DNA from: Veillonellales bacterium
GTDB lineage: Bacteria > Bacillota > Negativicutes > Veillonellales > Dialisteraceae
Direction of reading: 5' to 3'
Length of the DNA stretch: 64,000 nt
Assembly: GCA_944390485.1 (NCBI GenBank)
Contig: CALXPQ010000001.1
Coordinates: forward strand, 310,001 to 374,000
The first letter of the stretch is position 1. Each line of letters starts with the position of its first letter. Shown here in pieces: positions 54,564 through 64,000 of this stretch. Made by a program: the position numbers and the translations under genes. Below the pieces are notes generated by a model. The model had not been told where the DNA came from and ran no database searches. It saw only the letters and a program-made list of their open reading frames with translations.

Positions 54564-54592
54564 ATTATACAGGCACGCGCCCGCCCTGTCAA
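54564..54592 (-). promoter_or_regulatory. Perfect consensus promoter of rplU-prp-rpmA
   Basis: TTGACA (54592-54587), 17 bases, TATAAT (54569-54564): an exact sigma-A consensus in both hexamers and spacing. Confidence 0.9.
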
Positions 54593-54689: not shown

Positions 54690-55181
54690 ATGGAAAACTA
54701 CATCGGCCGGCATCTCCTCATCGACTGCTACCGCTGCCGCGAAGGCGTCATCGACTCCGCCGACCTGCTCATCCCGCTCATCAACTCCGCCGCCCAGAGC
54801 CTCGGCATCGAACTCTACGACACCTTCTACCACGAAGACGAAAAAGAGATCACCGTCTCCGGCTTCGGCGAGAACTGCCACCTCTGCATCCACACCTACC
54901 CCGAGCCGAACTACGCCGCCGTGGACATCTACCTCTTCGACACCGACGTGCAGCCCACGCTCGCCATGCCCATCCTGCGGCAGTACCTCCAGCCCGACAA
55001 GATCCGGGCCACTTCCGTCAAGCGCGGCAACATCGACACCGACCTCGACCTCAAGCCGAAAATCAAATCCAAATCCACCGCCATGCGCAAAGTGAAGCGC
55101 ACCGGCCACCAGCTGAACGCCGCGGGCAAGAAAGTGGTCCACTTCATCCAGAAAAGCCGCGGCGGCAAAGACAAAGAATAG
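54690..55181 (+). CDS. SpeD/AdoMetDC-related protein with altered processing site
   Basis: 163 aa. The fold of bacterial S-adenosylmethionine decarboxylase proenzyme is clear: IGRHLLIDCYRC, CHLCIHTYPEPNYAAVDIYLF, LRQYLQPDKIRATSVKRG. In the canonical enzyme the Glu62-Ser63 bond is cut and Ser63 becomes the pyruvoyl cofactor. Here the matching residues are Asn62-Cys63. His68 is kept, but the canonical Cys83 is Phe. A basic tail of about 45 residues (KPKIKSKSTAMRKVKRTG) extends past the usual end. No speE is nearby. It may have lost decarboxylase activity or gained another; codon use is very rich in third-position C. GGAGG lies 7 bases before the ATG. Confidence 0.75.
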   Translation: MENYIGRHLLIDCYRCREGVIDSADLLIPLINSAAQSLGIELYDTFYHEDEKEITVSGFGENCHLCIHTYPEPNYAAVDIYLFDTDVQPTLAMPILRQYLQPDKIRATSVKRGNIDTDLDLKPKIKSKSTAMRKVKRTGHQLNAAGKKVVHFIQKSRGGKDKE

Positions 55182-55192
55182 CAGGAACCTTC

Positions 55193-55226
55193 CAGAGTAC
55201 GGGCGCGCCCCGTGCTTTCTGATTTT
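55193..55226 (+). terminator. Terminator of the SpeD-like gene
   Basis: CAGA...ACGGG pairs with CCCGT...TCTG around a CGCG-containing centre, followed by ATTTTTT. The stem has mismatches. Confidence 0.5.
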
Positions 55227-55272: not shown

Positions 55273-58200
55273 TCACAGCGTCATGCCGCCCGCGATGAAA
55301 TGGATATTCGCCTTCCGTTCCCGGAAATCGCGGTTCCGATCCCACGGATTATCGTCAAAGAGGAAATTCCAGTGTTCGTTCACCGGCGGTTCCACCGTGT
55401 CCGGCGGAAGACCGATGCCAAGTTCCAGGTCAATATCATAGCCCAAAAGGTTGGGGTTGAAAGTACCGCCCTCGCCGCTTGCCGCAATCTGCATGGAATA
55501 CAGCCAATCATCATACGTTCCCATGGCAGAATGACCGTTACTCTGAATCAGATTCTGATTCTGCCAAAATGCACCAAATTCAATCCCACCCGGAGCTGTC
55601 AAAGCCCCGCTCTGAATCAAATCCCCGACATTCAGCTTATGTTCGTTTCCATCCGCTGCGAAATCCGGCAACTTGTCCGGGTTCACCGTTACTTTTGTAA
55701 GGAAGACTTTCAAAAGCGGGTTGGTGCTGCCTTCATAGATTTTCCAGATGCTTTCCGTTCCATCTGCATTGGTGCGATCAAAATCGAAGCCCTCATAACT
55801 ACTGCTGTGTGTCCAGCTGCCTGTCTCCGATAGATTGTATCCATTGGAAACACTGCCATTTCCCACGAGGCTGCCAAAGCCGTAAACGTTGGAGATAGAG
55901 CCAGCATTGTTGCCTGCAATGGCACCAGTATCGGTGCTGCCGGTGACGCTCGTTGTGTTGTAGGCGTTGGAAATGGTGCCAGCATTATTACCAGCGATAC
56001 CGCCTACGTGGATGTAACCGGTGATAGCCTGATTCTTTCCATCTGCGGTAATAACCGTATTGAAGACCTGATCGAGGGTGCCCGCGTTGGTGCCGGCGAT
56101 GCCGCCCACATTGGAGCTGCCGCCTGCATTGATGACGCCCGTATTGTAGCCTGCGGTCACTTTGCCGCTATTCGTGCCGAAGAGGCCGGCAATGTTCTCG
56201 CTGTCTCCCGCCGCGGCGGTAAATTCCCTTTCATCCACAATGCCGTCCTTGTCGTCATCATTCCACGTACCAGCCTGGATGGTGCCATTGTTGTAGATCT
56301 GGTATTTGTAATACCCGTCATTTTCATCACGGCCACCGGTGATATCGCCGGAGTTCTGACCGATGAGGCCGCCTACGTTCTGGGTACCCATGACCTGCCC
56401 GCCGACTTCGTTTTTCAGGCTGGAATGAGTGACCGCTCCGGAATTTACGCCGAAGATACCACCGGTACCATTCATACCTGCATTTTCAGAATAAGTACCG
56501 GATACCGTCCCTTTATTGGTCATCTCCACATACTCAATCTTTCCGGTATTTTCCCCGAAGATGCCGCCTGCACCGCCGTTATGAGCAATGACGACGCCGG
56601 AATTTTCAATGCCGACCATATCATTTAGACTGCCGGTAATAGCCGCATTATTCAATCCGGCGACACCGCCTACGTGGCTTGCCCCTTCGACACGGCCTTC
56701 ATTGCTGTTACCCATGCCATTCAGCGTTGCACCTTCCGGATTCCATCCGACAATGCCTCCCACATAATCTGCTTCCGGAGCAATGATGTCATTGGTATTG
56801 GTAGCGCTGGTAATAATACCCGGATTACTTACCGTACCATCTTCATTAAGATGACCATTGATACCGGCTACACCGCCAAAATATTTTGCCGGTGTAGTCT
56901 CTGTCACGTCATACCTGACATGTAATTCTACATCGTTATGCGTATTGGCAATCGTCCCGGTATTTTCACCTGCTACACCGCCAACGTACATCTGACCCGT
57001 GATGGTGCCGCGGTTGATAAGTTCCTGTTCATTTGCAGAAATGGTGCCTTCGTTGGAGCCGGCGATACCGCCTACGTAGTTGTCGCCGGTGATGGCGGCG
57101 GCGCTGTCATTCACGAGATTGGTAAGCTCAGGCGCTTTATCATCAGCACCGACACGGTTTGCACCGACAAGGCCGCCTACGTAGTTGTTGCCGGTAATCT
57201 CGCCGTTGTTACGGCCGTTGGTGATGCTGCCTTCGTTGTTGCCCACGAGGCCGCCTACATAGTCACTGGTATCGTTTGTATCGGAAGACGAATCGGCTTC
57301 GCCGGTGACGCTGGAAGCGTTCGCCACGTTGGAAACAAGGCTGTCTTTTCCTTCTTCTACAGCGGCATGATTCACACCGAGGATGCCGCCTACGTTGTCG
57401 CGGCCGCTGACGATGCTTTCATTGTAAACATTTTCCACCGTGCCGCCCGTCTGATTGATGCCGGCGATACCGCCTACGTTATCGGAATACTGCGTCGTAT
57501 CGCCCTTGTAGACGCCGGTGGTGACGCCGAGGCTGTCCACATTGGTAAGCGTGCCCGCATTCACGCCGGCCACGCCGCCGATGGCGGTCGCATTGCCTGC
57601 ACTGGCGTTGACAGCGCTGTTGCTGTTGCTGTTGGAAATAGTGCCGCTATTCGTGCCCGCAATCCCGCCGGCCACGGTGCCAGCTCCTTCTGCGGTAACC
57701 GTCGATGTGCCTACGGCATTCGCACCGGAAATGGTACCACTATTCGTACCGGCGATGCCGCCTGCACGGTTTGCCGACTGCACCACGTTGCCGAAGGTCG
57801 TCACGTTGGAAATGTTCCCGTTGTTCACGCCAGCCACAGCCCCGGCGTTTTCCGTGCCGGTGAAGGTGCTGGAGTAAACACGCAGATCTTCTACGGTGCC
57901 TGTATGAATTTTTCCTTCACCATCCTTGCGAGTTCCGATGGTGCCAAAGATGCCTGCATTGTTACCCGTTACTTTCAATCCGACGATGCGGTTGTCCCGG
58001 CCATCGAAGATACCCGTATAGGCTTCGCCTTCTCCACTTGCGATAGCTTTGTAGTCGTTCACACCGCTCGCGTTGATGTCGTTTTTCAGCGCAAAGTTGT
58101 AGCCGAGAATGTTGGTTGTTCTTCCTGCATTGGTCTCCTGTTCATAGTACTGCTGGATGCCCGCAAGCTGCTCGCCCGTGCTGACCCAGATGTAGGTATA

Positions 58201-61200
58201 ATCCCGCGGCGAAGCACTATCTGCAACGCCTTCATTTCCGGCAACCGAGAGATTCAGTGCGCTGATTTTATCTACAAATTTACCATTCTGCGCATCGCTA
58301 TCGAATTGCCCCAGATCAAACCGGTTATTTTCATAGTCCCACATATCGACGGTGATCTTGCTGCTGTCCGCCGCGCTGCCGTCTCCATTTTTGAACGCAA
58401 TCGTGCCGCTCCCTGTCTCTGTGGAAAAATGGTCGAGGAATTCGTGAAGCCGGTTCACATTGACGCGCTCCGCGAGCCCATCAACGCCTTCTGTCGTCAG
58501 GGTGTTTACGATGTCCTGCGGCATTTGCCCGATGGAGTCACCCTCCATTCCATATTTTTGGTGAAGCATCTCTTTAATGGCGGAAATAGCTTTCGCTTTC
58601 CCGTCATCATCCATTTCTTCCAAATTGGAAATCACAATGCCTGCCTGCTGAAGCGCCGCGGTGATATCCTCCATGAAGGATTCACCCCGCACTTTGCCGA
58701 TGTTCGTGAGGTCGAGCACTTTCTCGCCGGGCGCATCAAACGTGATATTTCCGCCCACATCGAGATCGCTGTCCATGTAGATGTCGCCAGAGGCGGTGAC
58801 TTTGAGATCGCCGCCGGTGGTGACGAGGCCTTCGCCTTTGTTGCCGTAGTAGACGTTTACGTGGCCGTCCGCCGCATCGTTTGCGGTGATGGAGATATTC
58901 CCATTCACGGCAGAGGCTTTGGTGGTGTAGCCGAAGCGGTCTCCAATGTCGCTCATAGAGACATGAGGATCACTCACCGTCCCCGGCGTCCAGTCCTCCG
59001 CTATGCCATGGATGCCAGGTACAAATACTTTCTTGTTTTCTTCTGCCGAAGTGAGCTGGCCGTAAATGTCCACGCTGCCGCCGGCAATGGAAATACTTCC
59101 GGAATTATCTTTCGCAGGGTCATTTCCTTCTGTTGTTCCATTCCCCGTGGCGGTGACGCTGCCGTAGATGGTGACCTGCCCGTCCGCATCAATTGTGACG
59201 GAGGAGCCGTAGAGCTGCGACGCGCTGCCGAGCGCCACATCACCGGTCACATTGGTATTCGCTGAATCATGCGTATCCCCATTCAAATGGGCATTCAGGG
59301 TAAGCGCGCCGTCGCTGTAGATGAGGCCGCCGAAGTAGCCGCTGCCGCCGGTAGCCATGAAATCATTCAACGTGAGGCCCGCGCCGTACACGGCAAGGCC
59401 CGCGTCGTTATTGATGCCGAGGTCCTGCCAGTCGAAAGTCAGATTGGCTGTTCCGTCAGCCGCATTAATGATGGTGAGAAGCGGATCGTAGGCCGTGCCG
59501 TACTGGATGGAACTGATGCCGTTTTTACTTGTATTTGGATTATCAAAGTAATCTTTTGCATTTGGCAAAAACGCATTCAGGATAGGTGTGGAACCATAAT
59601 AAATACGCCACACATCATTTTCATTGACTTCATTTTGTTTAGTACCATTAGAAAATAAAGAATCTCCAGTATTCGTCTTGTATTGATTGATGTCATCTTT
59701 TTCATTAAAAGCAATCGCCTTATTGGAGTTGTCCAAGTCGGTATCAGGATTATCCTCAACATACAAATTGGTAAAAGTATCCTTCAGCTGAGGGTCCGGC
59801 TGGATGTAGTAGGTGTTTTCCACCTTAAAACTAGCCCCATTGGCATTGGTATAAATACTGCCAATTTGTCCACTTGAATCATCGATATACAAATTTCCCG
59901 TAGTATAGGCATTAAAAATATATACTGTATCCCCCTTATATTGACCATTTTCAGGAAAATATCTATATACGCCTCCGATGATTCCTCCGAGAGAGCTGTG
60001 GGAATCCTCATCAGTATTTCCCCAAAAACTCCGAAGTGTTCCCAGATTATATATATTACTCAGCGTAATATTGCCAATCGACACGTCCGCTGCACCGACG
60101 ATGCCGCCAACCTGACTCATTGAACTATGATTTTTATTAACGACTGTGATATTGCCCGTATTGAACGCATTGTTGATGCTGCCCGCATACATCCATCCGG
60201 CGATGCCGCCAACGACGTTGTAGCCATTGTAGATGGCGCCGGTGTTGTAGGCTTTCTCTACGGTGCCTGAGAGACGGCCCACGATGCCGCCCACATGACG
60301 GCCGAAATAGTCGTAGTTTTTATCGCCAATCAGGCCTTTGTTGTACACATCGTACAACAGGACTCGCGCCGAAGACTCTTCCGTGGTATCTCCTACGATA
60401 CCGCCCATGTTAATGGGATCAATCTTACCAGAATCCACAGTATTGGACTGTCGTGTCGTACGAAGATGTCCGAGATTGTAGGAACCGGCGATCTCGCCCT
60501 TGTACATCATGCCGGCGATGCCACCGATCCCGGTGTACCCCATGACGTCGCCTGTGTTGTAGCTGTTCGACACAGCGGCATTATCATATTTTGTATTGCT
60601 TCCCCCACTCGTTAACGCAGCTTCCCAAGATTGACCGTCTCCCCTTTCCAAAGTTTTATTGCGGTCAATCTTCCCGACGATGCCGCCTGCATTGGCCGCT
60701 TTGCTTGCGCTCCCTACATATCGCGCGTCCTCCGGCTCCAAAGTATGGACCGTACCGCGGTTCGCACTGGCTGCGATGTATACGTTGTCTCCGTCCATAT
60801 AGCCGACGATGCCGCCCATATTGCCGATAGTAAATTTCTCGCTACCGCTGCTTCTGATGGTTTCAGAGACAAATCCAGTTTCATTTCTTGCGCCGGTGGC
60901 CATGATGTCGCCGCCGTCATTCACGCCGTTGGTCACTATATATTTAATTGTATATTTATCAGTTTCTTGCGCATTTTCGCTGTTGGCAAAATAGCCTGCA
61001 ATGCCGCCCACGTTGTGCGCGCCGCGAACCTCGTTCTCCCGGTTCGTGGCGTCCGTGATGTTCGTATCGACGGCGCTCCCCACGATACCGCCTACATTGC
61101 CCGCGGTGTAATAAGTAGACGTCATCCATTCCGGAACACCACCATTAACATTGGTAACGTATTCCCCGAACGTACCAGACGCGGAACTGACGTCGCCCGT

Positions 61201-62976
61201 ATTCAGTACATCTGTAATCGTGCTGTTCCCAAACGCACTGCCTGCAATGCCGCCTGCATTGGCGATATAAACCTCAACTTCCGCCAGTCCATCACCATTC
61301 GTATCCGTACTGGAATGATCTGTGTGATAAATATATGTACCCGTCACCTGTCCATTGGCCAATACATTGCCGCTGTTTTCCGCATTCTGCACAGTGGTGC
61401 CTTCCATCGCACCCACGATGCCGCCCACGTTGTACGCGCCAGTGACGTTCAGGCGATTGTAGATCAGGTTCGTTCCATCGCCCAATGTCGCATTCACTGC
61501 CTGTCCTACGAGCCCGCCTACGTTATAGCTATAGCCTACGGTCATGGTTCCGTCAGCTTCCGTCCGCCCCGTCACTGCGCCGAGGTTATAGCTCGTACCG
61601 CCAAGGTCGCCTTTTTCCAGATAACCGATGAGGCCGCCGGCGTTACTGATCCGCCCACCCTCGCCATCTTCCGTGCCGGAACTGGTAATGGTGCCCGTAT
61701 TAATGAGGCCATTGTAAACGGTACGATTCTCCTCTGTCCCGACACTTTCACCCCCGACACTCTTACCGACAATGCCGCCCACATTGGACGCACCGGTGAC
61801 GGAGGCGCTGTTTGTGATGTTGGAAATCTGTACTTTGCCCTGCACGGAACCGGCAAGCGCGCCTACGTTATTTTTACCGGTGATGCTGCCGCCGACGAGG
61901 GTGACGTTATTGATGACCGCACCCTCTCCGACCACGCCGAAAAGACCGACGTTCTCCTCGGTTCCGCGATTGATATTCAGATTGAAAATATTGTAATCGA
62001 GACCGTCGAACGTACCGGTGAAAGCTGCTGTCGAGCCAATGGAAGCAAAGCCTGCTCCACCATTCCACTCTTTCGTAGCAGTGGCGTCGATGCTGTTGCG
62101 GAGAGCGTAGCTGCCGCTAGGGTTCGTATTGATGGCCTGGAGCTGCTCCACATTTTCCACCCACATATAGCCGTTCACGGATACATTGCCGTTAAGGATG
62201 TTTCCTTGTTTATCAATTTCCGTAACGGTATAGTTCTTATCCTGCCCCGAATAATCATATGTCGTCTTGCCATTTTCAGTTTTTTTCTGTACCGCATTAT
62301 AACCGATGACAACATTTCCTGTATTAGTGGTGCGAATATTCGGCGTCACGGATTGCCCTTCGTCTGTCTTGATACGGTCAGCATCAATGACAATCCGATT
62401 GCCTTCAAAGGTAACATCAGTGGCATTGATATTGCCGAGGCTCATGAGAACGGCGTCCTGTGTCGTTCCCTGTACGACAAAATTAGTATTTCCCGCTTTA
62501 TTTATAAAATCCGTGAATGCTGCATCATTCATCTTTTTATTAGACACGTAGAGGCTGCCTACGTTGATCTGGGCGGAGTTGCCGATTTCCACGCCGGATG
62601 GATTGACGATGTAGATGTTACCGCCCTGCGCGTTGATGGTCCCATAAATCTGGGACATGCTGTTGCTCTTGTCATAATTGAGCGTATTAAAATTATTTTT
62701 GTCCGAAGTAAAATTTACCGTGGCGTTGGCTCCCACATTAAAGCCTTTATCCCATACGATGACCGCATTCTGATTATTTTGATGAATGTCCATCTGTGTG
62801 CCGTTGGGAGTAATAGTTCCCGCAGCGTCTCCGCCTATAAAATGGCCGCCATCAGGAAGCGTGCCATTGGGTATGGGACTATTCGCCGCCAGCGCGGCGG
62901 GCGCGGCGAGGCAGAGCGCGGCCCCGGCGAAGAGGCCCGCGAGGACGCGGCGTTTCAGATCATTTCTGTATTTCAT
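55273..62976 (-). CDS. Giant TpsA-type exoprotein (filamentous haemagglutinin N-domain, GLUG repeats)
   Basis: 2,567 aa. A Sec signal peptide (RRVLAGLFAGAALCLAAPAALA) leads into a TPS secretion domain with DIHQNNQNAVIVWDKGFNVG, IYGTINAQGGNIYIVNPSGVEIG and LYVSN. Two large GLUG-repeat modules follow (about residues 270-1137 and 1590-2425), each opening with a WV..EQL..I phrase and closing with a WxIYxGST phrase. They flank a beta-helix-like section with repeated GDLKVTASGDIYM-type strands. The last residues run NIHFIAGGMTL. The protein should pass the outer membrane through the upstream TpsB and act as an adhesin or surface fibre. No toxin domain is seen. GGAGG lies 7 bases before the ATG, and the gene follows tpsB by 25 bases. 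Confidence 0.88.
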   Translation of the reverse strand: MKYRNDLKRRVLAGLFAGAALCLAAPAALAANSPIPNGTLPDGGHFIGGDAAGTITPNGTQMDIHQNNQNAVIVWDKGFNVGANATVNFTSDKNNFNTLNYDKSNSMSQIYGTINAQGGNIYIVNPSGVEIGNSAQINVGSLYVSNKKMNDAAFTDFINKAGNTNFVVQGTTQDAVLMSLGNINATDVTFEGNRIVIDADRIKTDEGQSVTPNIRTTNTGNVVIGYNAVQKKTENGKTTYDYSGQDKNYTVTEIDKQGNILNGNVSVNGYMWVENVEQLQAINTNPSGSYALRNSIDATATKEWNGGAGFASIGSTAAFTGTFDGLDYNIFNLNINRGTEENVGLFGVVGEGAVINNVTLVGGSITGKNNVGALAGSVQGKVQISNITNSASVTGASNVGGIVGKSVGGESVGTEENRTVYNGLINTGTITSSGTEDGEGGRISNAGGLIGYLEKGDLGGTSYNLGAVTGRTEADGTMTVGYSYNVGGLVGQAVNATLGDGTNLIYNRLNVTGAYNVGGIVGAMEGTTVQNAENSGNVLANGQVTGTYIYHTDHSSTDTNGDGLAEVEVYIANAGGIAGSAFGNSTITDVLNTGDVSSASGTFGEYVTNVNGGVPEWMTSTYYTAGNVGGIVGSAVDTNITDATNRENEVRGAHNVGGIAGYFANSENAQETDKYTIKYIVTNGVNDGGDIMATGARNETGFVSETIRSSGSEKFTIGNMGGIVGYMDGDNVYIAASANRGTVHTLEPEDARYVGSASKAANAGGIVGKIDRNKTLERGDGQSWEAALTSGGSNTKYDNAAVSNSYNTGDVMGYTGIGGIAGMMYKGEIAGSYNLGHLRTTRQSNTVDSGKIDPINMGGIVGDTTEESSARVLLYDVYNKGLIGDKNYDYFGRHVGGIVGRLSGTVEKAYNTGAIYNGYNVVGGIAGWMYAGSINNAFNTGNITVVNKNHSSMSQVGGIVGAADVSIGNITLSNIYNLGTLRSFWGNTDEDSHSSLGGIIGGVYRYFPENGQYKGDTVYIFNAYTTGNLYIDDSSGQIGSIYTNANGASFKVENTYYIQPDPQLKDTFTNLYVEDNPDTDLDNSNKAIAFNEKDDINQYKTNTGDSLFSNGTKQNEVNENDVWRIYYGSTPILNAFLPNAKDYFDNPNTSKNGISSIQYGTAYDPLLTIINAADGTANLTFDWQDLGINNDAGLAVYGAGLTLNDFMATGGSGYFGGLIYSDGALTLNAHLNGDTHDSANTNVTGDVALGSASQLYGSSVTIDADGQVTIYGSVTATGNGTTEGNDPAKDNSGSISIAGGSVDIYGQLTSAEENKKVFVPGIHGIAEDWTPGTVSDPHVSMSDIGDRFGYTTKASAVNGNISITANDAADGHVNVYYGNKGEGLVTTGGDLKVTASGDIYMDSDLDVGGNITFDAPGEKVLDLTNIGKVRGESFMEDITAALQQAGIVISNLEEMDDDGKAKAISAIKEMLHQKYGMEGDSIGQMPQDIVNTLTTEGVDGLAERVNVNRLHEFLDHFSTETGSGTIAFKNGDGSAADSSKITVDMWDYENNRFDLGQFDSDAQNGKFVDKISALNLSVAGNEGVADSASPRDYTYIWVSTGEQLAGIQQYYEQETNAGRTTNILGYNFALKNDINASGVNDYKAIASGEGEAYTGIFDGRDNRIVGLKVTGNNAGIFGTIGTRKDGEGKIHTGTVEDLRVYSSTFTGTENAGAVAGVNNGNISNVTTFGNVVQSANRAGGIAGTNSGTISGANAVGTSTVTAEGAGTVAGGIAGTNSGTISNSNSNSAVNASAGNATAIGGVAGVNAGTLTNVDSLGVTTGVYKGDTTQYSDNVGGIAGINQTGGTVENVYNESIVSGRDNVGGILGVNHAAVEEGKDSLVSNVANASSVTGEADSSSDTNDTSDYVGGLVGNNEGSITNGRNNGEITGNNYVGGLVGANRVGADDKAPELTNLVNDSAAAITGDNYVGGIAGSNEGTISANEQELINRGTITGQMYVGGVAGENTGTIANTHNDVELHVRYDVTETTPAKYFGGVAGINGHLNEDGTVSNPGIITSATNTNDIIAPEADYVGGIVGWNPEGATLNGMGNSNEGRVEGASHVGGVAGLNNAAITGSLNDMVGIENSGVVIAHNGGAGGIFGENTGKIEYVEMTNKGTVSGTYSENAGMNGTGGIFGVNSGAVTHSSLKNEVGGQVMGTQNVGGLIGQNSGDITGGRDENDGYYKYQIYNNGTIQAGTWNDDDKDGIVDEREFTAAAGDSENIAGLFGTNSGKVTAGYNTGVINAGGSSNVGGIAGTNAGTLDQVFNTVITADGKNQAITGYIHVGGIAGNNAGTISNAYNTTSVTGSTDTGAIAGNNAGSISNVYGFGSLVGNGSVSNGYNLSETGSWTHSSSYEGFDFDRTNADGTESIWKIYEGSTNPLLKVFLTKVTVNPDKLPDFAADGNEHKLNVGDLIQSGALTAPGGIEFGAFWQNQNLIQSNGHSAMGTYDDWLYSMQIAASGEGGTFNPNLLGYDIDLELGIGLPPDTVEPPVNEHWNFLFDDNPWDRNRDFRERKANIHFIAGGMTL
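55700..58206 (-). repeat. tpsA module B (GLUG repeats)
   Basis: Residues about 1590-2425. Opens with YIWVSTGEQLAGI and a FALKNDINASG phrase, runs through many units of the type GGIAGTNSGTISN, and ends with SIWKIYEGSTNPLLKVFL. It matches the plan of module A. Confidence 0.75.
59566..62170 (-). repeat. tpsA module A (GLUG repeats)
   Basis: Residues about 270-1137. Opens with YMWVENVEQLQAI and YALRNSIDATA, runs through units such as NVGGIVGAMEGTTVQNAEN, and ends with VWRIYYGSTPILNAFL. Its last part (about 59510-60150) is richer in A and T than the surrounding DNA. Confidence 0.75.
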
Positions 62977-63001: not shown

Positions 63002-64000
63002 TCAGAACATTTTATAAATCTGGAACCAGACGCGGCCGTCGTGGTCTTCCGGTTCGGACCGGTCGGGACGGGCGTCGATCTTCCGGGCGAAGTCGAGCTG
63101 GGCGTACCAGTCGTTCGGCATGGCGTAGCGCAGGCCCACGCCCCAGCCGTAGAGGTGCTCGGAGCGCTGGAAGGCGCGGTCGTTCGCATAGCCCGCGTCG
63201 AGGAAGACAGCCGCCTCGAGGCCTTCCACCCCCGTGGCGCGGCGCACTTCGAAAGTACCGAGCCAGCCGGCATCGCCGTAGCCGTCGCCGTTCCCGTAGG
63301 CGCGGACGCCGTTCATGCCGCCGAGATAGAACTGCTCGCTCCCGTCGAGAGGCCGGTTCGCGAACTGCCAGGAGCCGCGGAAGCGGTAGTTCCACGGGCC
63401 GTCGTACCAGATCTTGAAGAGGTCGCCGGTGAGCTTGTGATAGCTGCCGTCAAGGTAGGAGCCACCATCGGTGGACATGTCGCCGTACCAGTAAATGACG
63501 TCGTACTGGAGAAATTCGTTCGGCGCGTACTGGCTGCCGGAAATGCCCACGTGCCACACGTCGGCGTCTTTCTCCATACGCAGGGTGCCGATGCCCTCTA
63601 CACGGAAACGGTATTTATTGGTGATCTTCCGGTGGTCGTAGCCGTAGATGAGGGTGACCCGGTCGGAGCGGTCGCGGTAGAGAGGCGTCAGGCCATAGAA
63701 GCTGATGCCTTCGGACTCGCCGAGGGAGTCGTAGAAGCCGTTCGTATGAAGCTCGTATTCGCTCTTGCTGTAGGCCACGCCGAGGCGGGTGCCGTCCCAT
63801 CCGACGGGCGTCTCATAGCGGGCGCTCCAGTTCTTCACGTCGTGGCTGGACATCATGCCGGAGAGGCCGATCTTGTCGCCCTGGTGGCCGGGGTTGTTGA
63901 TCTCGAGGTTGAATCCGTAGCGGTAGCGGCCGGAATAGTAGCCGCCCCCATTGTCGACGAATACGTAGTTGTTCCACACGGGGCGGCGCACGGCTTCCAC
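63002..64000 (-). CDS. TpsB-type outer-membrane transporter (ShlB/FhaC family), N-terminus beyond the window
   Basis: The last 332 residues of a beta-barrel protein. Alternating strands (GRYRYGFNLEINNPG, RVTLIYGYDHRKI, LQYDVIYWYGDM) and the conserved LGGMNGVRAYGNGDGYGDAGWLGTFEVR region (the VRGY-type motif of the family) identify it, and it ends in Phe as outer-membrane barrels do. About 220-250 residues including the POTRA domains should lie past base 64000. It precedes tpsA by 25 bases, the standard two-partner secretion order. Confidence 0.9.
   Translation of the reverse strand: MEAVRRPVWNNYVFVDNGGGYYSGRYRYGFNLEINNPGHQGDKIGLSGMMSSHDVKNWSARYETPVGWDGTRLGVAYSKSEYELHTNGFYDSLGESEGISFYGLTPLYRDRSDRVTLIYGYDHRKITNKYRFRVEGIGTLRMEKDADVWHVGISGSQYAPNEFLQYDVIYWYGDMSTDGGSYLDGSYHKLTGDLFKIWYDGPWNYRFRGSWQFANRPLDGSEQFYLGGMNGVRAYGNGDGYGDAGWLGTFEVRRATGVEGLEAAVFLDAGYANDRAFQRSEHLYGWGVGLRYAMPNDWYAQLDFARKIDARPDRSEPEDHDGRVWFQIYKMF

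Follow-up and report, generated by a model that had tools for sequence, protein, structure and literature searches.

The gene at positions 54,690–55,181 of the window (the whole stretch of DNA analyzed, 64,000 nucleotides) encodes a SpeD paralogue that carries a basic C-terminal tail and lacks the pyruvoyl-forming serine. It belongs to a clade of tailed SpeD proteins present nearly throughout one bacterial class, very probably Negativicutes. The clade is rather likely to be a class-wide pseudoenzyme that lacks catalysis, docks on an anionic surface (a membrane or RNA) by means of the tail, and acts in a regulatory or structural manner independent of spermidine.

Identification of the gene and protein

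The open reading frame was genuine, with an ATG start and a Shine-Dalgarno-like GGAGGG a few bases 5' of it. A profile, A1, was built from 51 orthologues of the tailed SpeD. The features of the gene are as follows:

54,690–55,181, + strand: gene of the tailed, Ser63-less SpeD paralogue, 163 aa (PF02675, E 3.7e-24; class-wide profile A1, E 7e-56)
54,690–55,034, + strand: SpeD-fold core, residues 1–115 (AlphaFold2 pLDDT mostly 92–97)
54,873–54,881, + strand: degenerate cleavage site N62-C63-H64, canonically E-S-H (alignment to T. maritima SpeD, 1tlu and 1tmi)
54,891–54,893, + strand: His68, the processing histidine, kept (His in 93/99 orthologues)
54,936–54,938, + strand: Phe83, replacing the processing/catalytic Cys83 (alignment to T. 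maritima AdoMetDC; Phe in 33/99 orthologues)
55,011–55,058, + strand: junction motif T108-x3-R112-G-[D/N]-[F/I]-G/D ... D120-[M/L]-K-P123, conserved across the class, residues 108–123 (no variation at T108, R112, or P123 in 51 sequences)
55,047–55,178, + strand: cationic amphipathic C-terminal tail, residues 120–163 (pI, helical moment, absence outside the class)
55,194–55,218, + strand: terminator-like stem-loop closing the monocistronic unit (pattern scan; neighbours on the opposite strand)

The protein scored 85.6 bits against PF02675 (curated cut-off 25), which places it in the AdoMetDC/SpeD fold family; with its homology to class-1b SpeD, this bore out the earlier note, in which a SpeD-like protein had been proposed here. 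The score against TIGR03330 (NCBIfam) was 73.3 bits, slightly below the equivalog cut-off of 75.65, and thus fell short of the functional class-1b assignment. In the AlphaFold2 model (37 sequences), the core was confident, with blocks spanning residues 11–110 at pLDDT 92–97. The best Foldseek matches of the core were to T. maritima AdoMetDC (TMt 0.85–0.87, rmsd about 2.2), and the nearest solved structures included the S63A non-processing mutant of that enzyme.

Loss of the processing residues

Ser63, His68, and Cys83 are reported to be essential for SpeD self-processing, and T. maritima SpeD likewise needs Cys83 (PMC10407285). The window protein has Cys at position 63 and Phe at position 83, with His68 present. 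The residues and numbering given for this site in the earlier note (Asn62-Cys63-His64, His68 kept, Phe at 83) were right by alignment to T. maritima 1tlu and 1tmi, and the alignment placed no other serine at or adjoining the cleavage site of the window protein. A sequencing error or a mutation of one genome was ruled out, because two other assemblies of the genus (93–98% identity) carry the same N-C-H...H...F residues.

Among 99 aligned orthologues, position 63 was occupied by Gly (40), Ser (36), Cys (8), Ala (8), Phe (3), Thr (2), Val (1), and His (1), and position 83 by Cys (51), Phe (33), or other residues (15). Both Ser63 and Cys83 were retained in only 20 of them. Every aligned member of the window's order had Phe83, never Cys83. 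A tree was built with columns 62, 63, and 83 left out, and in it the tailed clade was split from the canonical class-1b SpeD outgroup at 100% SH-aLRT. Parsimony on the tree gave at least 11 Ser/non-Ser changes at position 63 and at least 12 Cys/non-Cys changes at position 83, counts that are approximate because many forks of the tree were unresolved and that do not on their own tell loss of Ser from its regain. Ser63 was presumed ancestral, since canonical SpeD has Ser there. Cys63 required at least three changes and had three separate origins, so that it most likely represents an end state reached by drift and not the mark of a cysteine-processing clade; such a clade was ruled out by the scatter of Cys63 on the tree. 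The Asn-Cys type raised in the earlier note exists as the window's own genus only, and the real unit is the class-wide tailed clade.

Junction motif and C-terminal tail

The window protein carries the features that define the clade: T108, R112, G113, D120, L121-K122-P123, and a cationic amphipathic tail. The tail has a pI of 10.9, against 4.6 for the core, in agreement with the basic tail noticed earlier. Across the orthologues, the net charge of the tail, C-terminal of the D[M/L]KP motif, was +6 to +20 (median +9). The best 18-residue tail helix had a moment of 0.53 versus 0.33 for shuffles (mean z 2.05), and the moment was maximal at 100 degrees, the helical period. A HeliQuest-type lipid-binding score was passed by 99% of the tails, although amphipathicity counts here as one inherited property and not as 99 independent ones, because the sequences are related. 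AlphaFold2 (37 sequences) predicted a disordered linker (residues 119–142) and, at low confidence, a tail helix (residues 144–157).

Distribution and selection

Of 381 class genomes, 358 gave a match to profile A1, as did 229 of the 235 that are of good quality, and the tailed gene nearly always occurred once per genome. The gene is not universal in the class, as a few good genomes lack it (G075, G151). For comparison, 60 other genomes were drawn across the phylum, 59 of them from outside the class. SpeD matches were found in 40 of these 59, and none bears the tail, since all end at profile position 122 or earlier. All 51 members tested matched canonical AdoMetDC models only, and none of the NCBIfam models is specific to the clade. 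No description of the clade was found in the literature searched, a search missing most subscription journals, and the paralogue is apparently undescribed so far.

The tailed gene is under purifying selection: dN/dS was 0.016–0.139 for close orthologue pairs with measurable dS, and 0.027–0.139 within the window's genus. In the alignment of 99 orthologues, members without Ser63 or Cys83 retained D12, Y14, C16, H64, H68, P71, D79, T108, R112, G113, D120, and P123 at 90% or more, whereas F49, E62, T69, E72, and C83 had decayed. By parsimony, D12, D79, R112, and P123 took no steps, T108 one, and D120 three. The median number of steps per column was 27 in the core and 18 in the tail, so the tail is the less variable part. 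Conservation has moved off the catalytic site to the D12/Y14/C16-D79-T108-RGDFG-DMKP region and the tail helix.

Genomic context

In the window, the gene and rplU-prp-rpmA point away from each other, and on the other side of the gene a large filamentous-haemagglutinin-like reading frame runs towards it. The rplU-prp-rpmA neighbourhood is confined to part of the window's family; in other families, the neighbours are pheST, clpC, recD2, or rubrerythrin. The commonest layout elsewhere is divergent from a nitronate monooxygenase/flavodiiron block leading to ctsR-mcsAB-clpC, with rubrerythrin 44–180 bp downstream. No conserved operon partner was found among these neighbours, which vary by family. 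In several families, tailed orthologues lie divergent from or near the CtsR/McsAB/ClpC protease-control operon (L045, L047, L050, L052, L060, L065), and the layouts suggest an old position near stress genes. A phage or plasmid origin was considered and rejected; the searches matched distant canonical SpeDs only.

Several other elements were observed in the window. A perfect sigma-70 consensus promoter (TTGACA-17-TATAAT, 12/12; 54,564–54,592, − strand) points into rplU-prp-rpmA and away from the SpeD-like gene. The reading frame at 55,273–62,976 (− strand) encodes a secreted protein of 2567 aa that resembles filamentous haemagglutinin and repeats the motif GGI(A/V)G, and upstream of it lies an outer-membrane transporter-like reading frame (63,002–64,000), both recognized by eye. 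The two are probably a two-partner secretion pair.

Canonical SpeD and spermidine synthesis

The assembly that holds the window (1.83 Mb, 10 contigs) carries another PF02675 gene, on contig C3, which encodes an intact SpeD of the E. coli type (257 aa, Lys-Ser-His...His...Cys; TIGR03331, E 7e-131); spermidine synthase is encoded on contig C4. Given these genes, the cell does not need the window copy as its AdoMet decarboxylase. Canonical TIGR03331 SpeD was found separately in 123 of 151 genomes, so most hold both proteins. In the class genomes of this set that lack it and whose tailed copy was aligned, all copies were without Ser63 except those of two genomes (f6), whose canonical SpeD is of the B. 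subtilis type and missed by TIGR03331. Eight genomes, at least 98% complete and from four family groups, kept the tailed gene without PF01564 spermidine synthase (SpeE) or TIGR03331 SpeD (G005, G106, G114, G122, G130, G142, G147, G148). A search for a eukaryote-type AdoMetDC as a hidden partner gave no match, but its control was silent as well. An 18-fold expression change has been reported for a V. parvula SpeD (PMC6529473), which by its locus number is probably the canonical copy.

In four genomes (G023, G126, G117, G100; loci L127–L130), a cluster of genes for an arginine/lysine-type PLP decarboxylase, SpeE, an agmatinase-like SpeB, and a carboxy(nor)spermidine dehydrogenase-like protein was observed, to which L129 adds a carboxynorspermidine-decarboxylase-like gene. 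Canonical SpeD was not found in these four genomes, and their SpeE therefore seems to be without a source of decarboxylated AdoMet. In G110, SpeE directly adjoins canonical SpeD. An unverified fecal phage record (MT839461.1, L248; 307–1974, + strand) contains a single reading frame that appears to fuse an aminopropyltransferase to a canonical SpeD; its first half, identified by eye only, is branched-polyamine synthase-like.

Proposed function and alternatives

Tailed SpeD probably has a new job without catalysis. In the proposed sequence of events, a class-1b SpeD would have been duplicated anciently, in the ancestor of Negativicutes, and the duplicate would have gained a basic amphipathic C-terminal helix and turned into a core gene of the class. 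Most lineages would later have lost formation of the pyruvoyl group, and with it self-processing and decarboxylation, Cys63/Phe83 of the window protein being one of the outcomes. The fold may persist as a scaffold for binding or dimer formation, the TxxxRGDFG...DMKP junction would position the tail, and the tail most likely serves to dock SpeD on an anionic surface, either the inner membrane or RNA/ribosome. The role would then be regulatory or structural, with no dependence on spermidine synthesis. Homology, residue losses, selection, distribution, and amphipathicity are what the analysis shows directly. Non-catalysis of most lineages is strongly suggested by their residues; docking to membrane or RNA through the tail is suggested less firmly by the sequences, and the regulatory role is the weakest step. 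As a counter-point, H64 and H68 are conserved in more than 90% of members and could retain some part in an active site. Those 20 members that have both Ser63 and Cys83 may be working decarboxylases, in which case the shared function could be an add-on to an enzyme.

The options raised earlier were an inactive paralogue, processing through Cys, and a new role; the first and the last fit together, and the second fared poorly. An enzyme active through Cys63, by self-cleavage or another carbonyl, that decarboxylates some substrate would draw on Cys as the chemically nearest substitute for Ser and on the retained H64 and H68. Against it stand the three origins of Cys63 beside sister lineages with the same tail that have Gly, Ala, Val, or Phe there, the replacement of Cys83 by Phe in all aligned members of the window's order, and the decay of substrate-site positions 49 and 72, which together make such an enzyme very improbable. 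A decaying, non-functional remnant would account for the loss of catalytic residues in many lineages, but it is refuted by purifying selection and deserves hardly any credence: dN/dS is 0.02–0.14, a range that likewise ruled out a pseudogene, the frame is open almost everywhere, and the gene is near-universal in the class with invariant residues.

The tail features alone fit membrane and nucleic acid binding alike. A protein that binds RNA or the ribosome through its basic tail would agree with the net charge of +6 to +20 and with the L21/Prp/L27 genes adjoining the window gene, but those neighbours are limited to part of one family and the hydrophobic helix face suits a membrane or protein surface no less well; we regard this alternative as unlikely. 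A bolder reading, which we consider quite doubtful, is a class-defining SpeD pseudoenzyme docked on the inner membrane of diderm Firmicutes and sensing or handling AdoMet or polyamines there; it might serve the modification of peptidoglycan with diamines by which the outer membrane of these bacteria is tethered. Equally doubtful is a prozyme-like activator, a dead paralogue that heterodimerizes with class-1a canonical SpeD and turns it on. The candidate partner would be the E. coli-type SpeD, which is not known to require a prozyme-like partner in E. coli. Activation of its partner by a dead AdoMetDC paralogue is known in Trypanosoma brucei (PMC5201418), and both proteins occur together in most genomes. 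However, the tailed and canonical genes lie on separate contigs of the window's genome (C1 and C3), and retention of the tailed gene in the eight genomes without canonical SpeD and SpeE makes a prozyme-like role unlikely as the general function. The spermidine-independent pseudoenzyme remains the preferred reading.

A core gene found almost throughout the class appears to be misnamed: it matches AdoMetDC, yet most members, on the residues they carry, probably cannot form the pyruvoyl cofactor. If it were counted as SpeD, genomes such as G005 and G114 would be wrongly credited with an AdoMet decarboxylase. All stages of bacterial AdoMetDC pseudoenzyme evolution, from intact to fully degenerate, are extant in the clade. 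The cell wall of these organisms carries polyamines (PMC10628300), and tailed SpeD poses a class-specific, testable question in them.

Comparison with known systems

The window protein shares fold and homology with class-1b AdoMetDC (SpeD/SpeH; T. maritima 1tlu, TIGR03330, PF02675) and retains His64, His68, and Asp79. It differs in lacking Glu62, Ser63, and Cys83 and in having a tail of about 45 aa, which is absent from class-1b matches outside the class. The trypanosomatid AdoMetDC prozyme is likewise a dead paralogue beside an active one, although here the protein is dead by residues only (S63 and C83 lost). Unlike the prozyme, tailed SpeD is of bacterial class-1b origin, bears a tail, and has no obligate active AdoMetDC partner, being kept in genomes that have neither the active enzyme nor spermidine synthase. 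The pyruvoyl arginine or ornithine decarboxylases SpeDA/SpeDC are also SpeD duplicates with a changed role, and either accompany a second SpeD or occur where SpeE is missing (Li et al. 2023, PMC10407285); in contrast to the Cys63 protein of the window, they need the pyruvoyl-forming serine (PMC10407285). The SpeD-SpeD fusion of Victivallis vadensis, with its dead C-terminal SpeD domain (PMC10407285), is another bacterial case of a SpeD domain without critical active-site residues, but that domain is fused and known from one lineage, whereas tailed SpeD is free-standing, class-wide, and tailed.
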